DNA of 64,000 nucleotides, from NCBI RefSeq assembly GCF_900103165.1, contig NZ_FNKY01000001.1, positions 310,001 to 374,000 on the forward strand. The letters run 5' to 3'. Position 1 is the first letter of the stretch. The number at the start of each line of letters is the position of its first letter. The position numbers and the translations under genes are program-made. The stretch is from Nitrosospira multiformis. GTDB lineage: Bacteria; Pseudomonadota; Gammaproteobacteria; Burkholderiales; Nitrosomonadaceae. This document shows, piece after piece, positions 3,992 through 60,361 of the stretch. The notes under the pieces were generated by a model. It saw nothing but the letters and a program-made list of their open reading frames with translations. It made no database searches and was not told the origin of the DNA.

Positions 3992-4906
3992 ATTTTTGAC
4001 TCCTATTGGTTTGTGTTCTAAATATTTCCTAGTGCCAGACCATCCATATAGCTCATCTATACGGTAATCCTATTGCAACCAAAATGCATAATAATTTTTG
4101 GATATTTTTATATTATAAATACCGAGCTCCGGGAAAAATGGATTGATGAAGCTCGATGGTTGGAAGGCTACACTAAACAATGAGGTCTTCCAATAGACCG
4201 ATCGGGCTACCGAAAGGAAAGCAAGTGATGATGAAATTAATCTCATGAAGAAAATCAAGCATGAATCATGCCATTTATGGAAGAGACTAGCGTCCACTCA
4301 GTCACATTTGCGCTGAAACAACATATAACCTGCTTTGACCGGCGAGGGAGAGAAGCCGGAGTCAGCGATGCAACATTCTGAAGCAGTCTGGAATAGAAAA
4401 AACCAGGGAACGTCAGAGCCGCATCAGCTCAGGTGATGAGGAAAAAAATAAAATAGTAGTCCTGGGATTTGGCTGCCAACTGGGACCTGGACAGCGTTTA
4501 TGACTTTGGGAGTCTAAGGCAAGCGCCTTATAATCCTATATCCGGCAGTTGGATGGATTGGAAGTTAGTGTGCGGTTTGGGTACAGGGCAAGGTGCAACG
4601 ACGCGGTATGGTTATTCCATTCCAGGCGGTCAACTACCCGAATCTGGAATAGTAAGTTCTTGTCACCGTGTCAGTTTTTATAAACTGTGTATTGCGTGCT
4701 CGCGCATACCAGCATGCTGGGGAATGGGAAGCCTGAATGGCGGTTTTTGGGAGGAGCGCGATAGGGATGTTTACCGGGGAGCACCAACAGTATCTCAGCG
4801 TCCACTGCTATGGTTTTTCTATCTTCATTCAAATGCGACCACACGCACAATGGTTAACTCGGTGCTCTCCACTGATGGCATCCGCTCATCAGATGAAACT
4901 TATCTG
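3992..4906. other. intergenic region with one full dispersed repeat
   Basis: No credible gene. The frames at 4070-4297 (-) and 4469-5155 (+) have no family resemblance, and the second runs antisense into manC. It contains the repeat copy at 4533-4650. The part next to 3991 should carry the promoter of the PEP-CTERM gene, but I could not pick a convincing -35/-10 pair. Confidence 0.5.
4533..4650 (+). repeat. dispersed palindromic repeat, complete copy (118 bp)
   Basis: Left end ATCCTATATCCGGCAGTTGG (4533-4552). The right end, at 4627-4650, reads CGGTCAACTACCCGAATCTG then GAAT, an imperfect inverted copy. The interior GTGTGCGGTTTGGGTACAGG then GCAAG closely matches the copy at 59951-60087. Confidence 0.75.
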
Positions 4907-31233: not shown

Positions 31234-31323
31234 ACCTAATCCGATTACTGTGATGGGTAGAGAATTTTTGTATACTCGATTCTCATCTTTTGGGTGAATC
31301 CGCCCAACTACCGGATTTAGGAT
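31234..31323 (+). repeat. dispersed palindromic repeat, copy of ~90 bp
   Basis: Left end ACCTAATCCGATTACTG. The right end, at 31289-31323, reads TCATCTTTTGGGTGAATCCG then CCCAACTACCGGATT and TAGGAT. The right half is nearly identical to that of the copy at 47695-47812. No gene follows this copy. Confidence 0.7.
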
Positions 31324-44276: not shown

Positions 44277-44618
44277 TACACTCACTAGAGACGCGCCCCT
44301 GCCAGAGCCAGAGTGAGCCATCAATGGAATTCCGGCCACCATCACCATCATCTTTTACAACCGTTTCCTATCCTGAATCCGGCGATTGGGTGAGATAAAA
44401 CTATGTGATTCTGGGGATGCGAGACAAGGCGCGATGAAAATAGAATGAGCGGTCGACTGCCGGATTCAGGATGGTTGGCTTAAGAAACCATACATTCATT
44501 CAGGACTGGTACGTCCAACCCCGATTGACAACGATAAGGAATGCTGCTGGCAAAGCTTGCTGGCCAGCAGGTCCAAACACACTACACGGTTTTGCGACCA
44601 GAGACGAGGTAGTTAGTG
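44277..44618. other. convergent intergenic region with one full dispersed repeat
   Basis: Between the ABC exporter and the convergent gene at 44619-45215. Contains the repeat at 44370-44472. No T-tailed hairpin seen; the repeat itself could fold and terminate transcription. Confidence 0.5.
44370..44472 (+). repeat. dispersed palindromic repeat, complete copy (103 bp)
   Basis: Left end ATCCTGAATCCGGCGATTGG; the right end reads GCGGTCGACTGCCGGATTCA then GGAT. The terminal 14 bases (ATCCTGAATCCGGC) are perfect inverted repeats. Interior TTCTGGGGATGCGAGACAAG matches other copies. Confidence 0.8.
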
Positions 44619-47534: not shown

Positions 47535-47694
47535 TCACCAAACCGGAAGTATGAGACAAGCTTCCCTCAAGCTTTCCTTGCGAACTTATTTTTGTGTACT
47601 GTCTTTGTGAAAGCATCGTGTTTCGAGAGCGAAAGCCCTTCGATTCCAAAATATTCGAGTTATGATTCCAGATCCCAAAAACCGGTAACCCATA

Positions 47695-47812
47695 ATTCCA
47701 AATCCGGCAGTTGTTACTCATTTATTAGGCTGATGCTATGATTGTTAAGGATGCTTTGTGCTATTTAGCCCTCATTTTCTGGGTGAGCCCGCCCAACCAC
47801 TGGATTTAGGAT
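47695..47812 (+). repeat. dispersed palindromic repeat abutting a start codon (118 bp)
   Basis: Left end ATTCCAAATCCGGCAGTTG; the right end reads CCCAACCACTGGATTTAGGA then T at 47812. The ATG of the lipoprotein gene begins at the very next base. Confidence 0.75.
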
Positions 47813-48286
47813 ATGAATCGTTGCGTACTACTCATTTCCACGCTGCTCCTCATTTTATCCGGATGCGCGGCACTCCGTCTGCATGAACCGCTTCGCGTCT
47901 CCGTAGCCGGAATCGAACCATTGGAGGGAAGGGGTATGGAAGCACGTTTCGCGGTACATCTCAGGATTCAGAATCATGATGGCACGCCCCTTGACTATGA
48001 TGGCATCGGACTCGATCTCGATTTGCGTGGGATGAGCTTCGCGAGTGGAGTAAGCGATCAGCAGGGCACGATACCCCGCTTTGGGGAAACGGTAATCACG
48101 GTGCCGGTAACAGTTCCTGGGACGGCTATGATTCGTCATGCCTTCGGGTTCGCCACCGGCGATCGTACCAAGGCCGATTACCGGCTGCGTGGGCACCTTG
48201 GCGGACAGGGATTTTCCATCGGGCGGTACTTCGACTCAAAAGGAGAAATTACGCTGCCAGCCATGCCGCCGGAGCAGGTACACTAA
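47813..48286 (+). CDS. LEA14/WHy-domain lipoprotein
   Basis: 157 residues. Type II signal peptide with lipobox LSGC (Cys at ~18). The rest fits the LEA type 2/WHy fold: LRVSVAGIEPLEGRGMEARFAVHLRIQNHDGTPLDYDGIGLDLDL, with the conserved N-P/D-Y segment and beta strands. Such proteins are linked to desiccation or hypersensitive stress in plants; in bacteria they are periplasmic lipoproteins of unknown role. Stand-alone. Its start codon directly follows a dispersed repeat, so the repeat end must supply the ribosome-binding region. Confidence 0.85.
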   Translation: MNRCVLLISTLLLILSGCAALRLHEPLRVSVAGIEPLEGRGMEARFAVHLRIQNHDGTPLDYDGIGLDLDLRGMSFASGVSDQQGTIPRFGETVITVPVTVPGTAMIRHAFGFATGDRTKADYRLRGHLGGQGFSIGRYFDSKGEITLPAMPPEQVH

Positions 48287-48693
48287 CGTTAATCATCCTG
48301 GCAACGCACGGAACAGCGCCTTTCCCGGGAGGGTGTGACCCCGCCGCGGATGCCGGTGCCATGAAATGTGATCGGGCATTCCCTTTGCCTGATCCCCGCT
48401 TCGCCGAGACCCCGCGTGCGAGGGGCCCCTCGTGAGGCTCTGGGACATCCCATTCCAAAGCATTGCAATGCAACCATGCGCTACGAAAGCCGTGAAACCC
48501 AGCCCATAACGGACCTCGTCAGGAAGACAAGAATCAGATTTCGAAACAATCTCTGTGGGTGATGGCTCGTTAGATTAACGAATGAGTGAGTCAAACTGCC
48601 GGACTCAAGATCATTCGCCGGAATCAAAAAAGTTTGCCCGGACGCTGCGTGAAACGACCCTGATACCGAAACCTGCCTATAGCCTCTCCTGGA
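48287..48693. other. 407-base intergenic region with a palindrome and a repeat remnant
   Basis: Contains the perfect 14-bp palindrome CGAGGGGCCCCTCG (48419-48432) and, at 48580-48611, a half copy of the dispersed repeat (GAATGAGTGAGTCAAACTGC then CGGACTCAAGAT). No gene recognised. Confidence 0.5.
48580..48611 (+). repeat. half copy of the dispersed palindromic repeat
   Basis: CGAATGAGTGAGTCAAACTG followed by CCGGACTCAAGAT matches the right end of the copies at 44370-44472 and 59951-60087. No left half found. Confidence 0.55.
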
Positions 48694-49332
48694 TCAGGAA
48701 GCCCCGTATTGTGCACGGTAGCTTTCTATCGCACGAAGATTGTGCCCCAGATTCCTGTTCCGCAGATAATTTGCAATGTCGTCCAGATTAACGATGCTGG
48801 CGACCTGAATTCCATATGCATGATGAACCTCCTGCGTAGCAGAAAATTCTCCATTACCGCGCTCCATCCGGTCAAGCGCGATGATAACCCCACAAGGCAT
48901 GGCGCCGGAAGCACAGATATGGCTGACAGACTCACGCACTGAAACACCAGCGGAAATGACGTCATCCACAATCAGCACACGCCCGGCAAGGGGGGCGCCA
49001 ACGAGGTTTCCCCCTTCGCCATGGTCTTTCACTTCCTTACGATTGAAACAGAAAGGGTAGTTATGCCCGCTCTCCGCCAGCGCAATGACGATAGCGCTAA
49101 CCAGCGGAATGCCCTTGTAGGCGGGACCAAATAGCATGTCAAACGGAAGCTGGGCACCGAGAATGGCTTTGGCGTAAAATTGCCCCAGTTTCCTGAGAGA
49201 GTCGCCGTCGTTGAACAACCCGGCATTAAAAAAATATGGCGACATTCTCCCTGCCTTGGTTTTAAATTCGCCGAAGCACAATACATTGCGGCTAACGGCA
49301 AACTCAATGAATTCCTGACGAAAATCGGGCAT
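48694..49332 (-). CDS. pyrE: orotate phosphoribosyltransferase
   Basis: 212 residues from ATG 49332, the start that gives the family-type N terminus (MPDFRQEFIEFAVSRNVLCFG). PRPP-binding motif VLIVDDVISAGVSVRES, catalytic-loop region RKEVKDHGEGGN, and PYFFNAGLF. It makes OMP from orotate and PRPP in pyrimidine synthesis. Divergent from xth, with only 28 bases between start codons, so the two promoters must overlap or lie within coding sequence. Confidence 0.95.
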   Translation of the reverse strand: MPDFRQEFIEFAVSRNVLCFGEFKTKAGRMSPYFFNAGLFNDGDSLRKLGQFYAKAILGAQLPFDMLFGPAYKGIPLVSAIVIALAESGHNYPFCFNRKEVKDHGEGGNLVGAPLAGRVLIVDDVISAGVSVRESVSHICASGAMPCGVIIALDRMERGNGEFSATQEVHHAYGIQVASIVNLDDIANYLRNRNLGHNLRAIESYRAQYGAS

Positions 49333-49360
49333 CGCTATATGACAAACTGGAAAAATAGAC

Positions 49361-50134
49361 GTGAGAATTATAACGCTTAACCTGAATGGCGTGCGCTCCG
49401 CCGCAAACAAGGGGTTCTTTCGGTGGCTGCCAACACAGCAGGCGGATATCGTATGCGTGCAGGAACTGAAAGCTCATGTTGTCGACATAACCGGAGAAAT
49501 GGCCTCTCCTGATGGCTACCACGGTTATTTCCACTGCGCTGAAAAGAAAGGATACAGCGGGGTGGGTATTTACAGCCGGCACAAGCCCGACAATATTATT
49601 GAGGGCCTTGGCATTGCGGAAATTGATGCGGAGGGACGCTTTCTTCGCGCTGACTTTGGCCCATTGACTGTGATATCGATCTATTTTCCTTCCGGCTCCA
49701 GTGGCGAACACCGGCAAGCTGCCAAATTCTTTTTCCTTGAGCGATTTCTCCCCATGCTCAAAGAACTCGCGGGCTGCGGCAGGGAGATCATATTATGCGG
49801 CGACTGGAATATTGCCCACAAGGAAATCGATCTGAGGAACTGGCGCTCCAATCAGAAAAACTCCGGCTTCCTGCCCGAAGAGCGCACCTGGCTGAGCGGG
49901 GTTTTCGATGAGCTCGAATTCGTCGATGTATTCCGGCGAATTAACGCTGAGCCTGAGCAATACACGTGGTGGTCCAATCGCGGGCAGGCGTGGGCCAAAA
50001 ATGTGGGCTGGCGCATTGACTATCAGATCGCCACGCCAGAGATCGCGGCCAAAGCGACTGAAGTTTCGATTTACAAAGCGGAGCGTTTCTCTGATCATTC
50101 CCCGCTTACCATCGACTATGACTACAACATATGA
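49361..50134 (+). CDS. xth: exodeoxyribonuclease III (AP endonuclease)
   Basis: 257 residues. MRIITLNLNGVRSAANKGF with the metal-site Asn, VCVQELKAH (metal Glu), LCGDWNIAHKEIDL, and DHSPLTIDY at the C terminus (catalytic Asp-His). Cuts at abasic sites and trims 3' ends in base-excision repair. Its stop codon lies at the edge of a short dispersed repeat copy. Confidence 0.95.
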   Translation: MRIITLNLNGVRSAANKGFFRWLPTQQADIVCVQELKAHVVDITGEMASPDGYHGYFHCAEKKGYSGVGIYSRHKPDNIIEGLGIAEIDAEGRFLRADFGPLTVISIYFPSGSSGEHRQAAKFFFLERFLPMLKELAGCGREIILCGDWNIAHKEIDLRNWRSNQKNSGFLPEERTWLSGVFDELEFVDVFRRINAEPEQYTWWSNRGQAWAKNVGWRIDYQIATPEIAAKATEVSIYKAERFSDHSPLTIDYDYNI

Positions 50135-50202
50135 TTCCACATCCAATGGCTGATCGCTCATCTTGCGGTATCACCAGCTCGCCCGAATGCTGGATCTAGG
50201 AT
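50134..50202 (+). repeat. short dispersed repeat copy before a start codon (~69 bp)
   Basis: Left end ATTCCACATCCAATGG is a diverged family end. The right part CTCGCCCGAATGCTGGATCT then AGGAT is clear. It fills the whole xth-permease gap, and the permease ATG begins one base after it (GGATCTAGGATAATG). Confidence 0.6.
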
Positions 50203-50203
50203 A

Positions 50204-51592
50204 ATGTCCACTGCCTTATCCGGCTGGCTGCATGCTTTTCGCATTTACGCCCATCCACGGGTATTGGGGATGCTGTCACTGGGTTTTTCTGCCGGGTTGC
50301 CGCTGTTGTTGGTACTGGGCACCCTGTCGTTCTGGTTACGGGAAGCAGGTATCGACCGCTCCACTATCGGCCACCTGAGCTGGATCGGCCTGGCTTATGG
50401 TTTTAAATGGCTGTGGTCACCGTTGGTGGACCGTTTGTCATTGCCGTTATTAACCCGCCTTCTAGGCCGGCGGCGTGCCTGGCTGTTGCTGTCGCAAATC
50501 GTTATAACCATCGCACTGGCTGGTATGGCGAGTACCGACCCGATCGAGAACTTGACGTATATGGTTTTCTTTGCACTTGCTGTAGCTTTCGCTTCCGCCA
50601 CCCAGGATATCGCGCTGGATGCTTATCGAATCGAAGCCGTAGCGCCGAGACTCCAGGGCGCCATGGCCGCCACCTATCAGGCGGGTTATCGCGTGGCCAT
50701 GATCCTGGCTTCCGCTGGCGTATTGTGGATAGCGGCAGCGGTAGATCCTTCGGAAGCCACCTACGACTATGCGCCTTGGCGCACTGCCTATCTGGTGATG
50801 GCTGTATGCATGGGTGTGGGTATTATCACCACGCTTATCATCCGCGAGCCGGAAGTTCCTGTTACGCGTCTTATCGAAGAAAATGAGAACCACGCCCGAG
50901 GGATCATTGCACACTGGAATCTGAATGCACGACTCGCGCAAATACTCGCCTGGCTGTATGGAGCAATGATTGCACCCTTCCGGGATTTTATTGTGCGCCA
51001 TGGCCGGCAGGCGTTGGTGATTCTGGCATTGATCGCGCTCTATCGCATCTCGGATGTCGTGATGGGTGTAATGAGCAATCCTTTTTATGTGGATATGGGC
51101 TACACCAAGGATGAGGTGGCAACGATATCCAAGGTTTATGGAGTTATCATGACGATTGCGGGCGCGGCCATCGGCGGGGTACTCACGGCAAAAATCGGCG
51201 TCATGCGTACATTGTTTCTGGGAGCAGTATTATCAGCAGCAACCAATTTGCTGTTTGTCTGGCTGAGCGGACGCGGGCACGACGTAACCGGGCTTATATT
51301 CACCATCTCCGCCGATAACCTGTCTGGCGGCATCGCCTCTTCCGCTTTTATAGCCTATCTTTCCGGCCTGACTAATTCCGCCTACTCCGCCACGCAGTAT
51401 GCGCTGTTCAGTTCGGTAATGCTGTTATTGCCAAAATTCATCGCTGGATTCAGTGGTGAATTCGTCGACGCTTACGGTTACGCCAGTTTTTTTACCGGTA
51501 CGGCGTTGCTTGGCCTTCCGGTATTGGTATTAGTCTGGCTGGCGGGGCAGGCAAGATTTAAGACAATGGATTCCCCGCCGCATATCAAGTGA
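50204..51592 (+). CDS. AmpG-type MFS permease
   Basis: 462 residues, about 12-14 membrane helices. AmpG family features: LGFSAGLPLLLVLGTLSFWLREAG and SWIGLAYGFKWLWSPLVDRL, then AFASATQDIALDAYRIEA. AmpG carries GlcNAc-anhydroMurNAc peptides into the cytosol for cell-wall recycling; whether this paralogue does so is inferred. Convergent with metW, with three bases between stop codons. Uses a repeat-derived translation start region. Confidence 0.88.
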   Translation: MSTALSGWLHAFRIYAHPRVLGMLSLGFSAGLPLLLVLGTLSFWLREAGIDRSTIGHLSWIGLAYGFKWLWSPLVDRLSLPLLTRLLGRRRAWLLLSQIVITIALAGMASTDPIENLTYMVFFALAVAFASATQDIALDAYRIEAVAPRLQGAMAATYQAGYRVAMILASAGVLWIAAAVDPSEATYDYAPWRTAYLVMAVCMGVGIITTLIIREPEVPVTRLIEENENHARGIIAHWNLNARLAQILAWLYGAMIAPFRDFIVRHGRQALVILALIALYRISDVVMGVMSNPFYVDMGYTKDEVATISKVYGVIMTIAGAAIGGVLTAKIGVMRTLFLGAVLSAATNLLFVWLSGRGHDVTGLIFTISADNLSGGIASSAFIAYLSGLTNSAYSATQYALFSSVMLLLPKFIAGFSGEFVDAYGYASFFTGTALLGLPVLVLVWLAGQARFKTMDSPPHIK

Positions 51593-51595
51593 TGA

Positions 51596-52207
51596 TTATT
51601 TTTGTTGTTCAAATCGATAAAATGCCAATGTTCCCAGTAAATTGGGCAGAAATGTAATTTGATGATCCCCACTCATTACCCTGCGCTCGAGAATACGTGC
51701 GCCGTGCTGGCTGCAGAATTCTTCAAAATCACCGAGTGTACAATTGTGAATGTTAGGCGTATCGAACCACTGATAGGGTAGCGTTTCCGAAATAGGCATG
51801 TGGCCGGACATAACCTGTAGCCGGTTTTTCCAGTAACCAAAATTGGGGAACGATACGATCCCCTCTTTGCTTACCCGCAGCATTTCCTTAATGATTCCCT
51901 CGGTGTGTTTTACCGCCTGCAACGTTTGCGAGAGAACCACGTAATCGAACGATCCTGATTCGAAACTTAGCAATCCCGATTCCAGATCACTCTGGATTAC
52001 ATTGACCCCGTTATTGAAACAAGCCAGGACATTGTCGTCGTCTATTTCCACGCCATAGCCACGAATATTGCGCATATCGCGCAAGAAACATAGCAGGGAA
52101 CCGTCGCCACAGCCTAAATCGAGCACCTTCGCACCCGGTTTCACCCATGTGGCAATGGCAGCGAAATCGGGCCTGGTGGCGGTGGATGAGATAGTAAGGT
52201 TAGTCAC
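51596..52207 (-). CDS. metW: methionine biosynthesis protein MetW
   Basis: 203 residues from GTG 52207, chosen because family members start just before RPDFAAIATWVKPGAKVLDLGCGDGSLL. The longer frame starts with TTG at 52297, and an ATG at 52276 is also in frame. SAM-type motif I (VLDLGCGDGSL), then DYVVLSQTLQAV and ISFPNFGYWKNRLQ. MetW supports the homoserine O-acyltransferase MetX. Usually directly after metX, but here a HugZ-like gene intervenes. Confidence 0.9.
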   Translation of the reverse strand: MTNLTISSTATRPDFAAIATWVKPGAKVLDLGCGDGSLLCFLRDMRNIRGYGVEIDDDNVLACFNNGVNVIQSDLESGLLSFESGSFDYVVLSQTLQAVKHTEGIIKEMLRVSKEGIVSFPNFGYWKNRLQVMSGHMPISETLPYQWFDTPNIHNCTLGDFEEFCSQHGARILERRVMSGDHQITFLPNLLGTLAFYRFEQQK

Positions 52208-52333
52208 GTCTTCAGTATCTGCGGGACTTGTCGCCCGCTGGTAATCATGGCAGTCTTCATCGAAAAGCAACGGCATCCCAGAGGGGATGCAAGGCAAACA
52301 GGATAGTATATGCCCGATGAAATGAAATTAAAA

Positions 52334-53029
52334 TTATCTTGTTCTTTTCGCCATTTCGACTAAGGCATGCCGCGCCTGTTGTGCGTCGAGTACCATCTCC
52401 TCAAAATCGAAACGCAAATTTCCACCATCGGCGCATACGTCGAAGCCATCGCAATCGATCCCCAGCATTTCGACATCCACCGCCTCGCATTGGTGGAAAT
52501 GTTCACAATAGCGGCGCAAAGTATCGCGATGATCTACATTCATGTGCGCAATGACGTCGTCCTCCTGCGCGATCAGTGGATAGGGGGGTACCAAATAACT
52601 GATCGCCGAGACCCAATGAATTTTGCCGAAGCCGCCAATGTAACGCAGTGTCCGCGGCAATATGCGGTAGAAAGAAAAATCGCTCATGGCGAGATAGCTT
52701 TCCGCTTCCGGAAAATGGCGCAGATAGCGCACAGCAATACGGGGGTCGTTCTCCGCTGGTTGCGCCACCCCCACCACGGTGACACGCCCTTGCGACTGGA
52801 TGTTTAAATCATTCTGGTTGTGCGTAATAAGGCTTACGCGGGCATCATGCCGGATATTTTTGGTATGTTCGGCAAGTGTGCTAATCAGGATAAGCAGGCT
52901 GCCGTCGTGATCCACCAGATAGAACATAATCGAACCGAACGGATGGCCATTGAATTTTTCCGACAAAGTGCTCAAGGCCCCGTAGCGGTGGGCGCGTAAC
53001 ATCTGGCGAGCTGCGCGCGCGTTACTCAT
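52334..53029 (-). CDS. FMN-binding split-barrel protein, HugZ/DUF2470 type
   Basis: 231 residues. The N-terminal pyridoxamine-phosphate-oxidase-like barrel (RYGALSTLSEKFNGHPFGSIMFYLVDHDGSLLILIS) is followed by a C-terminal DUF2470 domain with IAHMNVDHRDTLRRYCEHF. Similar proteins bind haem and aid its degradation (HugZ); a flavin- or haem-binding role is inferred. Lies between metX and metW on the same strand, with gaps of ~125 bases each side. Confidence 0.85.
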   Translation of the reverse strand: MSNARAARQMLRAHRYGALSTLSEKFNGHPFGSIMFYLVDHDGSLLILISTLAEHTKNIRHDARVSLITHNQNDLNIQSQGRVTVVGVAQPAENDPRIAVRYLRHFPEAESYLAMSDFSFYRILPRTLRYIGGFGKIHWVSAISYLVPPYPLIAQEDDVIAHMNVDHRDTLRRYCEHFHQCEAVDVEMLGIDCDGFDVCADGGNLRFDFEEMVLDAQQARHALVEMAKRTR

Positions 53030-53166
53030 GGAAGCTTCTCTGATACCTCAAGCACCCCGGAGAGCTCATTTGCCCACCAATCATCGCGGTGAACTGTCCC
53101 GGCAATCCTCGAAGCGGTTGCTTGCAGATACAAGCTTCAAGGACATCCATGACCACGATCTCCGGC

Positions 53167-54306
53167 TTATATGACAATGTTGTCCATATAAGCCCGCATC
53201 AGCCTGTGATAATGACGATCTTCCATCAAGAAAGAGTCATGGCCATGACTGGAAGTGATTTCCGCATAGCTCACGTTGAGTTCATTATCCAGCAATGCTC
53301 TGACAATGGCACGCGAGCGCTCGGGCGAAAAACGCCAATCCGTGGTAAATGACAGCACCAGAAACTTTGCCTTGGCGGCGCGGAATGCCGCGCTCAAATC
53401 GTTGTTGTGCAGGTACGCGGGGTCAAAATAGTCGAGCGCCTTGGTCATCAGCAGATAGGTATTGGCATCGAATTGATCGGCGAACTTATCCCCCTGGTAG
53501 CGCAGGTATGACTCAATCTCGAACTCCACGTCGAAACCGAATGCAAGGGCTCCGTTACGCAACTCCCGTCCGAATTTCGCGGCCATCGCGTCATCCGATA
53601 AATAGGTGATGTGCCCCAACATGCGGGCAAGCCTTAAACCGCGCCGCGGCACCGTGCTGTGCGAATAATAGTCTCCGCCGTGGAAATCCGGGTCGGTAAT
53701 GATTGCCTGACGCGCCACATCGTTGAATGCGATGTTCTGCGCAGTCAGCTTGGCGGCGGCGGCGATCACCAGCGCATGCCGCACCCTTTCCGGAAAATCG
53801 AGGGTCCACTGCAACGCCTGCATCCCGCCAAGGCTACCACCCGCCACTGCGGCGAACTGATCGATACCAAGGTGGTCTGCCAGCCTTACCTGGGTTTGCA
53901 CCCAATCTTCTACCGTCACCACCGGAAAATCCGGGCCATAGCATTTTCCGGTCTTTGAATTGATGCTGGCCGGCCCGGTGGAACCATGACAGCCACCGAG
54001 GTTATTCACGCCCACCACAAAAAACTTGCGCGTATCAATAGACTTGCCAGGACCGATCATGTTGCTCCACCAGCCAACGTTTTTGGGGCTGTCCGCGTAA
54101 CAGCCGGCTAAATGATGATTGCCGGAAAGCGCGTGACATACCAGCACCGCGTTGGATCTGGCCGCATTAAGGTCGCCGTAAGTCTCGTATACCAGCTCGT
54201 AGTCTTCAAGCACGGCACCGCTCTTTAAATATAGCGGTGTATCGAAGCGTGCACGTTGCGGCGCGACAATGTCAATCGAACTGGAATCTTGCATCGGAAA
54301 GTTCAT
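53167..54306 (-). CDS. metX: homoserine O-acyltransferase (MetX)
   Basis: 379 residues, alpha/beta hydrolase. Nucleophile Ser in [27 protein letters not shown] loop, and the catalytic Asp and His in the C-terminal [13 protein letters not shown] and [10 protein letters not shown]. It acylates homoserine with acetyl- or succinyl-CoA; donor not decidable by eye. First step of methionine synthesis, paired with metW downstream. Confidence 0.95.
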
Positions 54307-54672
54307 TCATGAAAAAAAACGTTTATGCGTCGCGGCGTGCCGAAACAGATCGCACTTCGCAAGAATGCCAGGAGAATAACCAGTGACTTTGACTATCTCC
54401 AAGGTTCAGTCGCATCGACGGCTGGCATTCGCGCAATCCATGATCAGTCATTGTAATCAAATACATCGTTAATAATCCGTGCGCACACGCTAGCCTGGGC
54501 GGAATGGTTGCCTCCGCTCTCCATTTCTATACCTCGTTGCTCGAAGAAAAATACTCATTCATCCCGACATCATGCCGTGCCACGTTCTCTTCCACCACTG
54601 CTTGGCACTCAATTGGAGAATAAGTTGGCAAACAAGTTCACCCGGGATCTGCTTTCCGGGAGCTCACATCAA
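54307..54672. other. 366-base region between metX and ptsI
   Basis: No gene. I looked for SAM- or SAH-type riboswitch cores upstream of metX and did not see one. No convincing terminator for ptsI. Confidence 0.4.
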
Positions 54673-56400
54673 TCAGCTATTCAATTTCACCAATAATGCT
54701 TGAATTTTTGCCGGATCATCGGCTTTGAGCATCTTCTGTGTGAGCGGGATGATATCAGACAGACTGCTCCTTAACACTTCTCGCTTCACAGTCAATAGTT
54801 GTGCCGGGTGCATGGAAAAAAGCCGTAGCCCGAAGCCCAGCAGCAACCGGGTAAATAATATATCTCCCGCTAGTTCACCACAAACCGTCACGGGCACGCC
54901 GGTTCGGTTGGCACTGCGAATGATATGTGCAACCAGCCGCAGCACTGCCGGATGCAGGGAATCATAGAGGTGCGCCACCGAATCGTCGGCGCGGTCTATG
55001 GCAAGCGTATACTGAATCAAATCATTGGTGCCGATGGACAGAAAATCCAGTTTGCGCATAAAAATATCGAGACACAGCGCTGCGGCGGGCACCTCAATCA
55101 TGCCACCTACCTGAATTTTCTCGTCGAATAAAATTTTTTCCTGGCGCAAGCTTTGCTTGGCGTTTTCAATCAGGTGCAATGTCTGCGTAATTTCGGTAAT
55201 ACTGGAGAGCATCGGCACCAGAATACGAATCTGGCCATAACGCGAAGCGCGCAAAATCGCTCGCAATTGCGTATGGAACATTTGTGGTTCGGCCAGGCAC
55301 AGGCGGATGGCGCGCAATCCGAGTGCCGGGTTGGCTGCCACGCGCTTGGCACTATCAAGGTTCTTGTCGGCGCCCAGATCGAATGTACGAATCGTCACCG
55401 GCAGACCTCGCATTTTTCGCGCCACAGTACGATAGGCTTCGAATTGTTCTTCCTCGTCAGGCAGACTGTCGCGGTTGAGAAATAAAAATTCGCTGCGAAA
55501 CAAGCCGATGCCGGTGGCACCGTTTTCTTTGACCTGTTCGATATCCTGGGGTAGTTCGATATTGGCGTGCAGCTCTACTATAGTGCCATCAAGCGTCGTG
55601 GCAGCGGTTGTTTTGATGCGTTTGAGCTTCTGCTTTTCCAGCTCAAACTGGCTCTGGCGCAACCGGTATTCCGACAGCACATGCCTGTCAGGATCAACAA
55701 TTACGACACCCTGATTACCGTCCACAATCAGGATGTCATTATCGCGGATCAGGCGGCGAGCTTGATGCAACGCCACGATAGAAGGAATATTGAGACTGCG
55801 CGCAACGATAGCAGTGTGGGAAGTCAAGCCGCCCAAATCAGTAAGAAACGCGCTAAACCGGTGCTGCTTATATTGAATGACATCGGCGGGACTTAAATCA
55901 TGGGCAACCAGAATGCTGTCGCCATCGCGCTTTAGCGAGCTGGGCACATAACCTGGATGCCCCAGCAAGACTTTCAGCACGCGCTCCACTACTTGAATCA
56001 CATCGGTTTTGCGCTCGCGCAGATAAGGATCTTCAATCTCCTCAAACTGCGCCATCAATACGTCCATCTGTTGAGTAATCGCCCATTCGGCATTGCACTG
56101 ATTTTGGGCGATGTAAGTTTTGGCTGCGGTGGAAAGCGTTGGATCGTCCAGAATCATTCGGTGCAAATCAAGGAATGCGCCATATTCTGCCGCCGCGGGA
56201 CCATCGACAACAGAAGTATGCAGGACTTCAAGCTCCTCGCGAACCGCTGTGAAGGCAGTGTCGAGCCGGGATATTTCATTGTTGACTTGATCCCGCGGCA
56301 CAATGTGGTGTGCCACCTCCAGCGCGGCATGGGAAGCAAGATAGGCGTGGCCTATGGCAATGCCGCCGGAAACGCCCACACCATGCAACGCAAAGCTCAT
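54673..56400 (-). CDS. ptsI: phosphoenolpyruvate-protein phosphotransferase (enzyme I)
   Basis: 575 residues, full length. Phospho-His in GGLTSHTAIVARSL, PEP-binding FRSEFLFLNRDSLPDEEEQ, FLSIGTNDLIQYTLAIDR, and the catalytic Cys in VTVCGELAGD. It moves phosphate from PEP to HPr. The start overlaps the ptsH stop by 4 bases. No sugar-specific EIIB or EIIC nearby, so the pathway is probably regulatory. Confidence 0.96.
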   Translation of the reverse strand: MSFALHGVGVSGGIAIGHAYLASHAALEVAHHIVPRDQVNNEISRLDTAFTAVREELEVLHTSVVDGPAAAEYGAFLDLHRMILDDPTLSTAAKTYIAQNQCNAEWAITQQMDVLMAQFEEIEDPYLRERKTDVIQVVERVLKVLLGHPGYVPSSLKRDGDSILVAHDLSPADVIQYKQHRFSAFLTDLGGLTSHTAIVARSLNIPSIVALHQARRLIRDNDILIVDGNQGVVIVDPDRHVLSEYRLRQSQFELEKQKLKRIKTTAATTLDGTIVELHANIELPQDIEQVKENGATGIGLFRSEFLFLNRDSLPDEEEQFEAYRTVARKMRGLPVTIRTFDLGADKNLDSAKRVAANPALGLRAIRLCLAEPQMFHTQLRAILRASRYGQIRILVPMLSSITEITQTLHLIENAKQSLRQEKILFDEKIQVGGMIEVPAAALCLDIFMRKLDFLSIGTNDLIQYTLAIDRADDSVAHLYDSLHPAVLRLVAHIIRSANRTGVPVTVCGELAGDILFTRLLLGFGLRLFSMHPAQLLTVKREVLRSSLSDIIPLTQKMLKADDPAKIQALLVKLNS

Positions 56401-56666
56401 TCATTCTCCCCGAAATAATCCTCGATCAGGTTTACCAGCGCCTGCATGGCTTCGGTTTCATCCGTACCGTTCGTTTCGATACTCAAAATAACTCCCTTGC
56501 TTGCGGCCAGCATCATCACGCCCATGATACTTTTTGCATTCACCCTACGATCGTTTCGCGATAGCCATACCTCACACCTAAATTTACTGGCCAACTGGGT
56601 TAATCTGGCGGAAGCACGCGCATGCAAGCCCAGTTTGTTGATGATTTCAATCTCTCTACATTGCAT
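56397..56666 (-). CDS. ptsH: phosphocarrier protein HPr
   Basis: 89 residues from ATG 56666, which matches the family N terminus (MQCREIEIINKLGLHARAS; active-site His15). Regulatory Ser in NAKSIMGVMML. It receives phosphate from enzyme I and passes it to the mannose-type EIIA encoded just upstream, which it overlaps by 11 bases. Confidence 0.95.
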   Translation of the reverse strand: MQCREIEIINKLGLHARASARLTQLASKFRCEVWLSRNDRRVNAKSIMGVMMLAASKGVILSIETNGTDETEAMQALVNLIEDYFGENE

Positions 56667-57060
56667 TTTGCGGCCTCGATTCGATGCGCATGACACCTTC
56701 CCTGCCACCGGTCAGCGCCTTATCCCCAACCACTGCCAGCGGTTCGTTACGATAAGTGAGCGCTCTCACCAGCATGGGCAGATTGACTCCGGCAAGACAT
56801 TCCACCCTGCCGGGGCTCACCAGCCGAGTGGCGATATTGCAGGGCGTTGCTCCGCAAATATCACTCAATACAAGCACACCATCACCACAATCGACCTGTT
56901 TGATCAATTCCAGCGCTTTGGGCATAACAGCATCGGGATCGTCTCTGTTGGTAATACTTAGATACGTCAAATGCGGCGACTTCTCCCCCATGACATGGTT
57001 GGCGCAATGGATAAGACTGTCACCCAGATTGCCATGAGAAATAACCAGAATTCCGATCAT
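56656..57060 (-). CDS. PTS mannose-type EIIA domain protein
   Basis: 134 residues from ATG 57060. Phosphorylated His in GILVISHGNLGDSLI, then VLSDICGATPCNIATRL, both typical of the EIIA-Man family. It stands alone without EIIB, C or D, as in many betaproteobacteria, where EIIA-Man, HPr and EI form a signalling chain rather than a sugar importer. Confidence 0.92.
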   Translation of the reverse strand: MIGILVISHGNLGDSLIHCANHVMGEKSPHLTYLSITNRDDPDAVMPKALELIKQVDCGDGVLVLSDICGATPCNIATRLVSPGRVECLAGVNLPMLVRALTYRNEPLAVVGDKALTGGREGVMRIESRPQNAM

Positions 57061-57097
57061 GTTCGGTTCCGCCACTTTATATCAAAGGACGAATACA

Positions 57098-58045
57098 TTA
57101 ATTAAGCATCTTCTCAAGTGCGTCCATCATCATTCCAGCGGCGTTGAAACCCGTCTGCTCAGCGATCTCCCGCATGCAGGTTGGGCTCGTAACATTAATT
57201 TCGGTGAGATAATTGCCGATCACGTCCAACCCCGCCAACATCAAGCCCTTATCATATAACGCGGGACCCAGCGCTTCAGCGATTTCACGGTCGCGCCGGG
57301 TGAGCGGCTGCGCCACGCCGGTACCGCCCACGTTAAGATTACCGCGCGATTCACCCGCCTTCGGGATGCGCGCAAGCGCGTAAGGCACAGGCTCTCCAGC
57401 TATCAGCAGAATACGTTTATCACCTTGCGTGATTTCGGGGATGTAGCGCTGCGCCATAATCGTACGCGTACCATAATGCGTAAGCGTTTCCAGAATCACG
57501 CTGATATTGTGATCAGCGCTATGAATTCGAAACACGCTGGCCCCACCCATGCCGTCAAGCGGTTTCAGCACGATATCGCCATATTCAGCAAGGAAATCGC
57601 GAATCAAAGATTCCTGTCTTGTCACCAAAGTCGAGGCGGTAAATTGCGGAAACTTCGCTATGGCGAGCTTCTCGTTATGATCCCGCACCGCTTGCGGGCT
57701 ATTAACGACACGAGCGCCCCGCTTCTCCGCCAGTTCCAGCAGGTAGGTACTGTAGACATACTCCATATCGAATGGAGGGTCCTTGCGCATCAACACCACG
57801 CTAAATTCTTGCAATGGCGTTTCCTCCGGTTCCTCTGTCCGATACCAATGATGCCCGTCTGCCTCAGCTGTTAGTTCCAGCGCGCGCGCAAGTCCAACTG
57901 TCTCGCCGCTCCTGCATACCAAGTCCCCCTGCTGCATACTAAATAGCTGATGACCGCGGGAGGCTGCTTCACGCATCATGGCAAAGCTTGAATCCTTATA
58001 AGGCCTGATGGAATCCAGTTGGTCTAGAATGAAGGCGAGTTTCAT
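57098..58045 (-). CDS. gshB: glutathione synthetase
   Basis: 315 residues. GSH_synth N-terminal domain (LAFILDQLDSIRPYKDSSFAMMREA) and ATP-grasp domain with DIVLKPLDGMGGASVFRI, ITQGDKRILLI and GNLNVGGTGVAQPL. It ligates glycine to gamma-glutamylcysteine. Upstream of the PTS genes on the same strand, a common betaproteobacterial arrangement. Confidence 0.95.
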   Translation of the reverse strand: MKLAFILDQLDSIRPYKDSSFAMMREAASRGHQLFSMQQGDLVCRSGETVGLARALELTAEADGHHWYRTEEPEETPLQEFSVVLMRKDPPFDMEYVYSTYLLELAEKRGARVVNSPQAVRDHNEKLAIAKFPQFTASTLVTRQESLIRDFLAEYGDIVLKPLDGMGGASVFRIHSADHNISVILETLTHYGTRTIMAQRYIPEITQGDKRILLIAGEPVPYALARIPKAGESRGNLNVGGTGVAQPLTRRDREIAEALGPALYDKGLMLAGLDVIGNYLTEINVTSPTCMREIAEQTGFNAAGMMMDALEKMLN

Positions 58046-58335
58046 TTATTATTGCTGATCACAACTTAAATATCGGGGGTCGATGAGTTATTTTTGTATG
58101 GCTCCAGCAAGCTGCCGGACGTGAAGATCGAAGCCAGAAAACAATGGGATGAAGACAGGTTTTGACGATTTTCCGATCCACAATCGGGCTCGCCCGGAAC
58201 AGCGGCAAGATAGGCTTCAGCATGGAATAAATATGATGTTTACTGAAAGTTTACATTGTAGCATCACGTATTGGCGGAACCCGTGAATATTGGAAATCGT
58301 GTATGGGTTCAGAGACCAGGGCCTGTTAACAGACC

Positions 58336-59901
58336 CTAGCGTAGTTCGCCCATTGTATACAGCTCCGTTTGGAAATCAGTTTTGTATTTTTGTGGAAGCT
58401 CGGTCTCCGCCACACTGGCTTGGTCGCGGTTGACATAAATTCCGTACGAAACCCTGAATCTGGCCACGCCGTCGTTGGTGACCGGATGTATAAAAAGATC
58501 CGATAAATTGACTAGGCTCTGAGCACGAGTCAGAAACCGCTCCATCCGGTCAGGCCGCACATTTTCAGTTGTAAATAATTGAATAGTATAGTAATTTTTA
58601 TCAACCGTGGCCATAATTTGCTTGGTGGCCTCGATTCGCTGTTCTAACAGCTTATGTCCCGCCAACTTGACTCCGCCAAAATCCAGCTTGGCGGTTACGT
58701 GTTGTTCGGTTGTGGGAGCTGACCCACCCTGAGTGGACACAATTGCTCCCGCCGCAGTCGCGGATAATCCTTGTGGCGCAGAGGGTCGGGGCGGTGGAGG
58801 AGACTCGGCAGGCACAAGTGGGGCGGAGGGTACGGGAGATCCGGATACCGGTGCTGAGGCTGCCGGAGAGAGACTGGGAGTGGCTAATGCAACCGCCGGT
58901 GGAGATAGTGGGGTCGAGAGCGGAACGGGTGCTGTCGCCTCAGCGGATACCGAAGCAACAGTGGAGGTAACGTTCGTTGGCGTAAAAAGCTGGGCCTGCC
59001 AACCCAGTACCGCCAGCATTACCACGGCGAGTATGGCGCCCGCACCCGCTATGCGGAGATTCGGCAAATGGCGGCGCTTGATTCCGGAATCGTTAACAGC
59101 CGTTCTGGCATGAGGGGCTTCTATGCCACGAGTATGGGCGGCAAACGCCGCCAACAGAGACTTATCGGCAAGAATGTTTATCCGCTGAATGAGTCCACCG
59201 GAAGCGGCGGCAATTAATCTTACCGCTTCAGGAGTAAAAACATCCGGACCGCGATGGCCAGCAGCGCGCATGCGGAACATGAGATAGCCATTCACTGCTT
59301 TAGCGTCGAACGGCTGCATTATTAAATGATGCGTGATGCGATTCTTCAACTGACGCATGGGTGGCAAAGCGAGCGTATGCTTCAGTTCTGGCTGGCCAAA
59401 CAGAACAATTTGCAGCAATTTGTGGTGAGATGATTCGAGCTCGTAAAGTAATCGTAAGGCTTCCAGAGTCTCCGCCGGCATGGTGTGGGCTTCATCCACC
59501 AGCAACACCACTTGTTTGCCATCATATTTCTCGATCAGCGCATTTTGCAGGTCACATATCGCGACGATGGTGCGTGCTTCGATCATCGCGCTTTCAGCAA
59601 GCTCAAACCTTAATTCGTCGGCAATTGCGTGGAAAAGCTCATCTCGTGACAAATTCTGCCCGCCCAGATAAATAGTTTTCATCCCGGCGGGCAACCGTGT
59701 CATCAGTACCTGACATAAGGCGGTTTTTCCACTGCCCTCATCTCCAGTGAGCTGGATAATGCCCTCGACCCCCTCACCATGGGTCAACATATAGATGAGC
59801 GCATCCAGGGTTGCGCCTCTATCACCTCCTTCATAAAAGCAATCGGTGATTATTGTATGGGCAAATGGCTGTTTAGAAAGTCCAAAATGGCCAAGATACA
59901 T
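58336..59901 (-). CDS. ExeA/MshM-like AAA ATPase with membrane helix and SPOR-like C terminus
   Basis: 521 residues. N terminus FGLSKQPFAHTI is the ExeA-family opening. Walker A is QLTGDEGSGKTALCQ, Walker B VVLLVDEAHTMP. A transmembrane helix lies at ~283-303 (GAGAILAVVMLAVLGW), followed by a Pro/Ala/Ser-rich linker (~320-405). The last ~85 residues start YYTIQLFTTENVRPDRMERF and resemble a SPOR-like domain. ExeA-type ATPases help place secretin or pilus structures in the wall; peptidoglycan binding here is inferred. The start codon follows a half copy of the dispersed repeat by one base. Confidence 0.82.
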   Translation of the reverse strand: MYLGHFGLSKQPFAHTIITDCFYEGGDRGATLDALIYMLTHGEGVEGIIQLTGDEGSGKTALCQVLMTRLPAGMKTIYLGGQNLSRDELFHAIADELRFELAESAMIEARTIVAICDLQNALIEKYDGKQVVLLVDEAHTMPAETLEALRLLYELESSHHKLLQIVLFGQPELKHTLALPPMRQLKNRITHHLIMQPFDAKAVNGYLMFRMRAAGHRGPDVFTPEAVRLIAAASGGLIQRINILADKSLLAAFAAHTRGIEAPHARTAVNDSGIKRRHLPNLRIAGAGAILAVVMLAVLGWQAQLFTPTNVTSTVASVSAEATAPVPLSTPLSPPAVALATPSLSPAASAPVSGSPVPSAPLVPAESPPPPRPSAPQGLSATAAGAIVSTQGGSAPTTEQHVTAKLDFGGVKLAGHKLLEQRIEATKQIMATVDKNYYTIQLFTTENVRPDRMERFLTRAQSLVNLSDLFIHPVTNDGVARFRVSYGIYVNRDQASVAETELPQKYKTDFQTELYTMGELR

Positions 59902-59902
59902 T

Positions 59903-59946
59903 ATCCTAAATCCGGTAGTTGTAGCGAGCTCGCCAAAAGGTGAACG
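59903..59946 (-). repeat. half copy of the dispersed repeat before a start codon
   Basis: On the plus strand ATCCTAAATCCGGTAGTTG then TAGCGAGCTCGCCAAAAGGT and GAACG, the reverse of the right half of the copy at 47695-47812. Read toward the gene it ends CCGGATTTAGGATA-ATG, the same junction as at 50204. Confidence 0.7.
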
Positions 59947-59950
59947 TTAA

Positions 59951-60087
59951 ACCTAAATCCGATAGTTGGACGGGGTGAAGTGTGCGGTTTCTGGGGTACA
60001 GAGCAAGTTAAATGGCCCAAATAGTGTTTGTATATCATAGCGCCACTGAATCATGAAAAATGAGCGGCCAATCACCGGACCCAGGAT
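59951..60087 (+). repeat. dispersed palindromic repeat, complete copy (137 bp)
   Basis: Left end ACCTAAATCCGATAGTTGG; interior GTGTGCGGTTTCTGGGGTAC then AGAGCAAG; the right end reads GAGCGGCCAATCACCGGACC then CAGGAT. It stands immediately beside the half copy at 59903-59946, suggesting nested or successive insertions. Confidence 0.75.
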
Positions 60088-60361
60088 TATCACTTCTTGT
60101 GGTCAGGAATCCGCCGGTATGTTCGCAAGTGTGACCTTTAATCGAGCCTGCATCGCCGTGCAAAACGCTCGGTACGATCCTGCTCCACCCTTCTGAGCAG
60201 CAGAAAAGCACGGCTCCAAGTTTCGCTGGCCTGGAATAAGATATCACTATAAATGTAAAATTTCCTGATTCCAATCGCGGAAAAAGCATTTTCAACATAC
60301 TATTTACCTTGTCTTGATCCCCGTTGCTGGAGTATAGTGCGAGTCTGCTATTTATAATCCA

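Follow-up and report, generated by a model that had tools for sequence, protein, structure and literature searches.

Why do the ends of one dispersed palindromic repeat lie at the start codons of unrelated genes? The stretch of DNA analysed here (the window) comprises 64,000 nucleotides of Nitrosospira multiformis contig NZ_FNKY01000001.1 (positions 310,001 to 374,000), and in it ends of the repeat family are found at the start codons of a LEA14-like protein gene, an AmpG-family transporter gene and an ExeA-like ATPase gene (47813, 50204 and 59901), all three where the original prediction had placed them. The repeats are a family of miniature inverted-repeat transposable elements (MITEs), which in this Nitrosospira-type genome come in sizes of about 116, 236 or 385 bp. 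It is highly probable that an IS1380-type MITE inserted at start codons, with duplication of the target remaking the ATG and the end of the element becoming the leader, and that such insertions were then preferentially kept.

Allowing one mismatch, the end motif CYGGATYTAGGAT has 96 + 92 matches in the 3.5-Mb genome holding the window (G000), compared to 0 + 1 for the same motif read backwards; within the window, the end pattern with up to three mismatches occurs 16 times against 3.4 expected. The AmpG protein of this genome has its best match among named genomes in Nitrosospira sp. NpAV (95%). The set of ends was drawn from the stretches around motif matches, so that weaker copies elsewhere in G000 fall outside the count; of 251 end-like matches, 50 with fewer than 12 of 17 identities were dropped and 201 were kept. 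These ends form 69 outward-facing pairs, the commonest sizes being 236 (22 pairs), 116 (6), 235 (5) and 385 bp (3). The element terminates in CCGGATTTAGG, and the bases beyond its terminal GG are variable (mostly AT or TT) and tend to match the opposite flank, the element carrying 5-bp target duplications of the form WTNAW on both sides. Identical 5-bp flanks are present in 34 of the 69 pairs, asymmetric ones included (ATAAA/ATAAA), and WTNAW directly follows 157 of the 201 ends.

The consensus sequences of the 236-, 385- and 116-bp types carry terminal inverted repeats, CCTAAATCCGGTAGTTG and CAACTACCGGATTTAGG (with one position T/C and A/G), and are nested: the 236-bp type consists of a left part similar to the 116-bp type and a palindrome of ~120 bp, and the 385-bp type has an additional GC-rich palindrome of ~150 bp. 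The left end (A) can be distinguished from the right ends (B in the long type, C in the short type). Terminal inverted repeats, a target duplication of fixed length, no transposase of their own and an insertion sequence (IS) with very similar ends, described below, define these repeats as MITEs. A known RNA family was considered and rejected, as searches of three loci gave no Rfam match that reached the gathering score and one 701-base stretch gave none at E≤1, and plasmid records gave no match to the 236-bp element. A promoter and terminator scan of one 236-bp copy and its surroundings returned one promoter-like match, against 0.5 by chance, and no terminator-like site.

At the three window genes, the element end and start codon read CTGGATTTAGGAT followed by ATG at 47800-47815 (+), CTGGATCTAGGATA followed by ATG at 50190-50206 (+), and CCGGATTTAGGATA followed by ATG at 59915-59899 (-). 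The original prediction had counted GGAT as part of the family end. The ends are real, but the final AT of GGAT, together with the AT of ATG, belongs to the target duplication and not to the element. It is the target motif and its duplication that produce the exact fit to the start codon. The junction at 47813 looks one base closer than the other two, because its ATAATG appears to have lost an A.

For the genome as a whole, each end was assigned its distance to the closest in-frame start among the called genes. Nineteen of the 201 ends lie in phase 0 (GG directly before ATGAW or TTGAW) and 14 in phase 3 (GG directly before WTNATG), with the end at 47813 as one more that is shifted by its lost base; every other distance up to 12 is taken by 0 to 3 ends. 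The junctions fall into phases 0 and 3 because in phases 1 or 2 an overlap of WTNAW with ATG is impossible. These 34 junctions include weak cases, namely three TTG starts besides that of the fmt-like gene and some genes for which the script chose a start further down. When only called starts are counted, 26 of the 201 ends are in phase 0 or 3; for the remaining intergenic WTNAW sites of these stretches, the figure is 100 of 4314 ends (phase 0, 14/201 vs 68/4314, 4.4-fold; phase 3, 12/201 vs 32/4314, 8.0-fold). A test weighted by pentamer, from which alone the 44 ends without WTNAW in the next five bases were excluded, gave 26 of 157 observed against 2.2% expected (p about 2e-15). The tabulation that the original prediction had called for, made here against other intergenic WTNAW sites, therefore finds an excess at start codons.

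Gene ends are also affected. Stop codons lie at distance 0-1 within the target duplication at 12 of the 201 ends compared to 73 of the 4314 null ends, which is an excess; each of the 12 is the stop of a gene whose reading frame runs into the element. Whatever the base at N, TNA is a stop codon on one of the two strands, so that an insertion at the end of a gene can likewise do no harm.

To learn what these sites look like without the element, orthologous loci were compared. Gene names used here (accA, pyk, bamB, ethe1, ruvA, recO, rpoN, purE, kdpC, gspF, gph, hemY, fmt) were read from the protein sequences and not from family searches. A joined query of five genes was run over 22 genomes of the genus, and loci were taken for a choice of the matches, which gave 68 aligned loci from other genomes (20 accA, 19 pyk, 11 ethe1, 12 ABC gene and 6 bamB). 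The protein match begins at residue 1 in 64 of these, the other four being distant bamB copies, and 60 have no element at the start codon. An element or remnant touches the start in 3/20 accA, 3/19 pyk, 2/6 bamB, 0/11 ethe1 and 0/12 ABC gene loci; in two of the 12 ABC gene loci, a copy ends about 30 bases upstream. Element-free orthologues begin at the same residue also for ruvA, gph, kdpC, purE and rpoN, and the same holds for the three window genes (AmpG; the LEA14-like gene in nine rows; the ExeA-like gene in one, L379). Relatives free of the element thus use the same start codon, and these empty sites, together with the genome-wide excess, bear out the proposal that the element inserted next to, or was kept at, start codons.

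Insertions differ in age. Among twelve more genes compared in G021, G014 and G004, some insertions are common to several genomes (e.g., gspF and hemY), and those at gph, purE, rpoN and the LEA14-like gene are seen in G000 only. At accA of G004 (L246), the copy is reduced to CGGATTTAGG between native upstream sequence and the ATG. The ampG insertion is old, its end being recognisable in NpAV and in two other relatives (L130, L135); L134 and multiformis (L153) have kept little of the repeat but show a spacer of similar length that ends in AATAATG, and for L133 and L136 an element end is doubtful. The start codon itself may vary, as the fmt-like gene has TTG at the element edge in G000 (C1:919755, L080) and G021 (L362) and ATG in G014 (L357) and G004 (L367).

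Some insertions lie where two genes once overlapped. In element-free relatives (L141, L150, L164, L165, L131, L138), the stop of xthA and the start of ampG overlap in ATGA, and at element-free ruvA loci (L355, L371) the preceding gene ends in the ATGA of the ruvA start. Where an element has entered such an overlap, the upstream gene still ends in the left copy of the duplication, and the downstream gene takes its start from the right copy.

The following course of events would connect these observations. As ATGAW or WTNATG, the WTNAW target coincides favourably with a start codon, and it also fits the ATGA overlap; the empty sites show that an insertion there leaves the reading frame intact. 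In phase 0, a second ATG arises beyond the element through the duplication; in phase 3, the duplication and the following G restore ATG; and at an ATGA overlap, the upstream stop is preserved and the downstream gene gains a start of its own. The element displaces the native leader, so that by position its outer end, CCGGATTTAGG, is now the leader touching the start codon, and this end may act as a weak to average translation initiation region. Insertions at start codons would be kept more often than other intergenic ones, with the right end towards the gene, which we infer from their excess and their orientation. The interior and the far repeat would later decay or be deleted, in one case down to CGGATTTAGG and the ATG, and loss of the far repeat may free the start from the terminal stem. 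The chances appear even that the process went further, a WTNAW-targeting element having repeatedly rewritten the initiation of core genes (read as accA, pyk, bamB, fmt, ruvA, recO and ampG) across the genus, with the duplication re-creating the start, the end recruited, one orientation selected and the rest lost, down to the extreme of a 10-base scar leader.

The excess might instead reflect target preference only, with a transposase that prefers WTNAW at gene starts (e.g., in open, transcribed or AT-rich DNA) and an element that is idle once there; we consider this possible and rather unlikely. WTNAW does fit start codons in phases 0 and 3, the null for the motif alone being 2.2-3.3% per end, and a smaller, moderate excess (1.4 to 2.2 fold) is also seen 4-60 bases upstream of starts. 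Ends at starts make up 7/70 in long elements, 10/48 in short ones, 2/19 in other paired and 15/64 in unpaired ends of G000, so that long elements are already above the null (p 0.008). However, in the recent burst of G006 (40 of about 50 places read), only 5 of 89 ends are at starts, which is not clearly above the null and is below the 34 of 201 in G000 (p 0.009). A near-palindromic target should moreover not favour one end of the element, yet in G000 21 of 81 right ends and 2 of 72 left ends are at starts (p 6e-5; 48 of the 201 ends were untyped and excluded, 10 of them at start codons). Orientation relative to genes outside the start-codon junctions showed no significant bias in G000 (p 0.11). 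Because the recent burst in G006 lacks a clear excess, the data favour retention rather than pure targeting. The right-end bias may possibly arise from an out-of-frame ATG in the left end, 26 bases before the edge, which could act as a competing start.

By position, the last bases of the element form the upstream part of the initiation region, as the original prediction had proposed for GGAT and TAGGA. The reading of GGAT/TAGGA as a good ribosome-binding site is not borne out in that form: predicted pairing with the anti-Shine-Dalgarno sequence is -3.3 in phase 0 and -3.7 in phase 3, compared to a mean of -3.39 for 341 called genes and -2.80 for random 20-mers, and pairing that reaches -4 is found at 0 of 19 phase-0 starts, compared to 39% of genes and 26% of random 20-mers. 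In phase 0, AGG touches the ATG, so that only the GGA further upstream is at a usable spacing. For seven native leaders, picked by hand, the pairing values lie between +1.4 and -6.4, and five do not reach -2. The earlier interpretation, which had overlooked the target duplication, is supported in part, above all for insertion and retention at starts.

The predicted unpaired fraction of the start region is 0.25 in the 34 junction genes compared to 0.44 in 100 control genes, a difference that we attribute to pairing between the two end repeats. This raises a second alternative, that the element is a regulatory RNA switch whose terminal stem masks the start until it is opened by upstream translation or a signal. 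The terminal repeats do pair in the consensus folds, and the lower accessibility agrees with a masking hairpin; the original prediction had suggested that a hairpin perhaps regulates translation, but nothing shows regulation. The far repeat is eroded (<13/17) in 16 of the 34 junction copies and absent at accA of G004, the genes are functionally unrelated, and the loci tried gave no Rfam match. We regard a switch as improbable. That the starts are mis-assigned, with the ends lying inside genes or well upstream of the true starts, is hardly credible: a coding-score caller does set the ampG start 69 bases downstream of the element edge and picks another start at 7 of the 33 phase-0/3 ends, but element-free orthologues of ampG, accA, pyk, ethe1, ruvA, gph, kdpC, purE and rpoN all begin at the same residue.

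A number of results weigh against the retention of MITE ends as working leaders. The gene caller behind the tabulation was a simple codon-usage script, the same on both sides of the comparison. The match of the ends to the anti-Shine-Dalgarno sequence is only average and rarely strong, and where both repeats are intact, the predicted stem buries the start region. The excess for G006 has p 0.17 against the null derived from G000, its right and left ends do not differ significantly (3/38 vs 1/39, p 0.36), and the long elements of G000 differ from all its other ends with p 0.075 only. Even at start codons the adjoining end drifts in some relatives, at ampG (L133, L134, L136, L153) and at hemY (L364, L377, L380), so that it is not strictly conserved. 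Far-repeat decay at start-codon copies is modest: the far end is eroded in the 16 of 34 junction copies given above vs 47 of 167 others (p 0.04; rank test, 0.013). As proof of selection this decay was rejected, its direction being as expected and its effect modest. The adjoining end is as well kept at start-codon copies as elsewhere (15.06 vs 15.09 of 17, among ends that entered with at least 12).

The origin of the family was sought through its ends. Exact ends occur in 7 of 300 genomes of the order, namely G000, G127 (16 ends) and five genomes with one each. G127 belongs to another family of the order, and its ends enclose an element of 1,639 bp that codes for a 513-residue protein. This protein matches PF13701 with 84.9 bits (cut-off 34.7), and its best NCBIfam model is NF033539 (IS1380) with 153.3 bits and E 7e-45, which is below that model's cut-off of 180. 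Both ends are present in 12 of 13 G127 stretches (eleven elements of 1,639 bp and one of 473 bp; the single-ended stretch, L394, is not among the twelve), and the 5-bp flanks of these twelve are identical in 8 and one base off in 4. One end of the element begins CCTAAATCCGG, as in the MITE, and the other CCTATTTCCGG. The G127 loci (L383-L395) hold many very similar copies of this IS1380-type element, which was apparently active recently.

With very similar ends and the same target, the 1,639-bp IS1380-like element is the likely parent type of the MITEs. The Nitrosospira elements are best filed as IS1380-type MITEs because the ends and the WTNAW duplication are common to them and to the transposase-coding IS of G127, and a transposase of that type presumably moved them. 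G000 gave neither a match to PF13701 nor a homologue of the G127 transposase, and no autonomous parent was found inside G000 or G006. Two wide end pairs of G000 were rejected as parents, since the reading frames around them look, as read from the sequences, like host genes. Also rejected were IS1380-type fragments in G006, G005, G026 and G018, which have no CC...GG terminal repeats with matching flanks, and an unrelated IS1380-type element in G016, which has TTAAT on both sides but different ends.

A 19-base pattern of the end was found in 20 of 101 genomes, made up of G000, 12 of 22 other genomes of the genus, 6 of 9 of the sister genus g2 and one more distant genome; the sampled g3 and g4 genomes of that family had none. 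Start codons were also reached more than once. The recO start has a short copy in G000, an eroded copy in G014, none in G021, and in G006 a copy of the 385-bp type with ATGAT on both sides, for which two separate insertions at this codon would be the most parsimonious account. The five genomes with a single exact end lie outside the family of the genus, and in two of them the end is at a gene start. In G082 it directly adjoins the start of a gene for carbonate dehydratase. In G179 a complete copy of the 236-bp type, flanked on either side by ATGAT, lies against an ABC permease gene; the matches of this gene to its family begin at residue 2 (a second ATG in phase 3).

Table 1. Window coordinates of the three MITE copies at start codons, their target duplications and the adjoining genes.
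Feature	Position	Strand	Remarks
Left target-site duplication ATAAT, element 1	47692..47696	.	
MITE copy 1, 114 bp, short type; right end adjoins LEA14-like gene	47697..47810	+	Absent from this start codon in 9/9 rows of relatives
Right target duplication of element 1, now ATATG, carrying the start codon	47811..47815	.	Apparently ATAATG minus one A
LEA14-like protein gene (PF03168)	47813..48286	+	
Exodeoxyribonuclease III gene (TIGR00633)	49361..50134	+	TGA stop inside left target duplication of element 2
Left target duplication ATGAT, element 2	50131..50135	.	Ancestral ATGA stop/start overlap
MITE copy 2, 65 bp, eroded	50136..50200	+	Old insertion, recognisable in other Nitrosospira
Right target duplication ATAAT, element 2	50201..50205	.	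Final two bases supply the AT of the ampG start codon
AmpG-family muropeptide transporter gene (TIGR00901)	50204..51592	+	
AAA ATPase gene (PF13401), named ExeA-like in the original prediction	58336..59901	-	ATG 59901-59899
Target duplication ATTAT, element 3	59900..59904	.	Holds AT of the start codon (minus strand ATAAT, then G)
MITE copy 3, 181 bp	59905..60085	-	Second, inner right-type end at about 59950
Distal target duplication ATTAT, element 3	60086..60090	.	

The inner right-type end of element 3 looks as if one copy had inserted into another. Other traces of the family lie elsewhere in the window. A copy of 99 bp at 44372-44470 has both ends CCGGATTCAGG and the flanks CCTAT/ATGGT, with no clean duplication; directly at its edge, the ATG at 44471 opens a 101-aa reading frame, which the gene script left uncalled. 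Copies or single ends also lie at about 4535-4646 and 31311-31321, and no called gene begins at their edges.

The IS1380-type MITE family is new but is an ordinary kind of thing. A search found no literature on MITEs in Nitrosospira, most subscription papers lying outside that search. What is unusual is that start codons and stop/start overlaps are occupied systematically, which the duplication renders harmless, and that one end is retained at the gene. Mobile elements are known for bringing promoters or breaking genes; here, thanks to five duplicated bases, an element can insert at a start codon and leave the gene intact, replace the leaders of core genes and unlink overlapping genes. In one genus of soil ammonia-oxidising bacteria, nature thereby provides many pairs in which a gene can be compared before and after the loss of its native leader. 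These pairs make testable the dependence of bacteria on the Shine-Dalgarno sequence and on stop/start coupling, as well as how a transposon end joins a gene.

REP/REPIN and ERIC-type repeats are similar to the Nitrosospira MITEs in being dispersed, palindromic, intergenic and able to fold, but their sequences and targets differ. IS1380 elements and piggyBac resemble the family described here in the PF13701 transposase (that of the parent type), ends beginning with CC and an AT-rich, symmetric target, whereas the Nitrosospira copies carry no transposase. One report gives TTAA as the main target of piggyBac and uses IS1380 transposases as an outgroup to piggyBac (PMC10813416); the present analysis, and not that report, is the source of the 5-bp WTNAW duplication and of its association with start codons. 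Closest in kind are the IS-derived bacterial MITEs, such as MITEAba12 and pneumococcal BOX and RUP, which are likewise short and non-coding, with terminal inverted repeats, target duplications and no transposase, and whose mobility is likewise ascribed to an IS with matching ends that acts in trans. MITEAba12 is reported to make 9-bp duplications with no identifiable sequence trend (PMC6382973), whereas the target in the Nitrosospira family is WTNAW and its copies are in excess at start codons. BOX elements are reported to form new reading frames (PMC3049150); the Nitrosospira MITEs, in contrast, sit exactly at the starts of existing genes.

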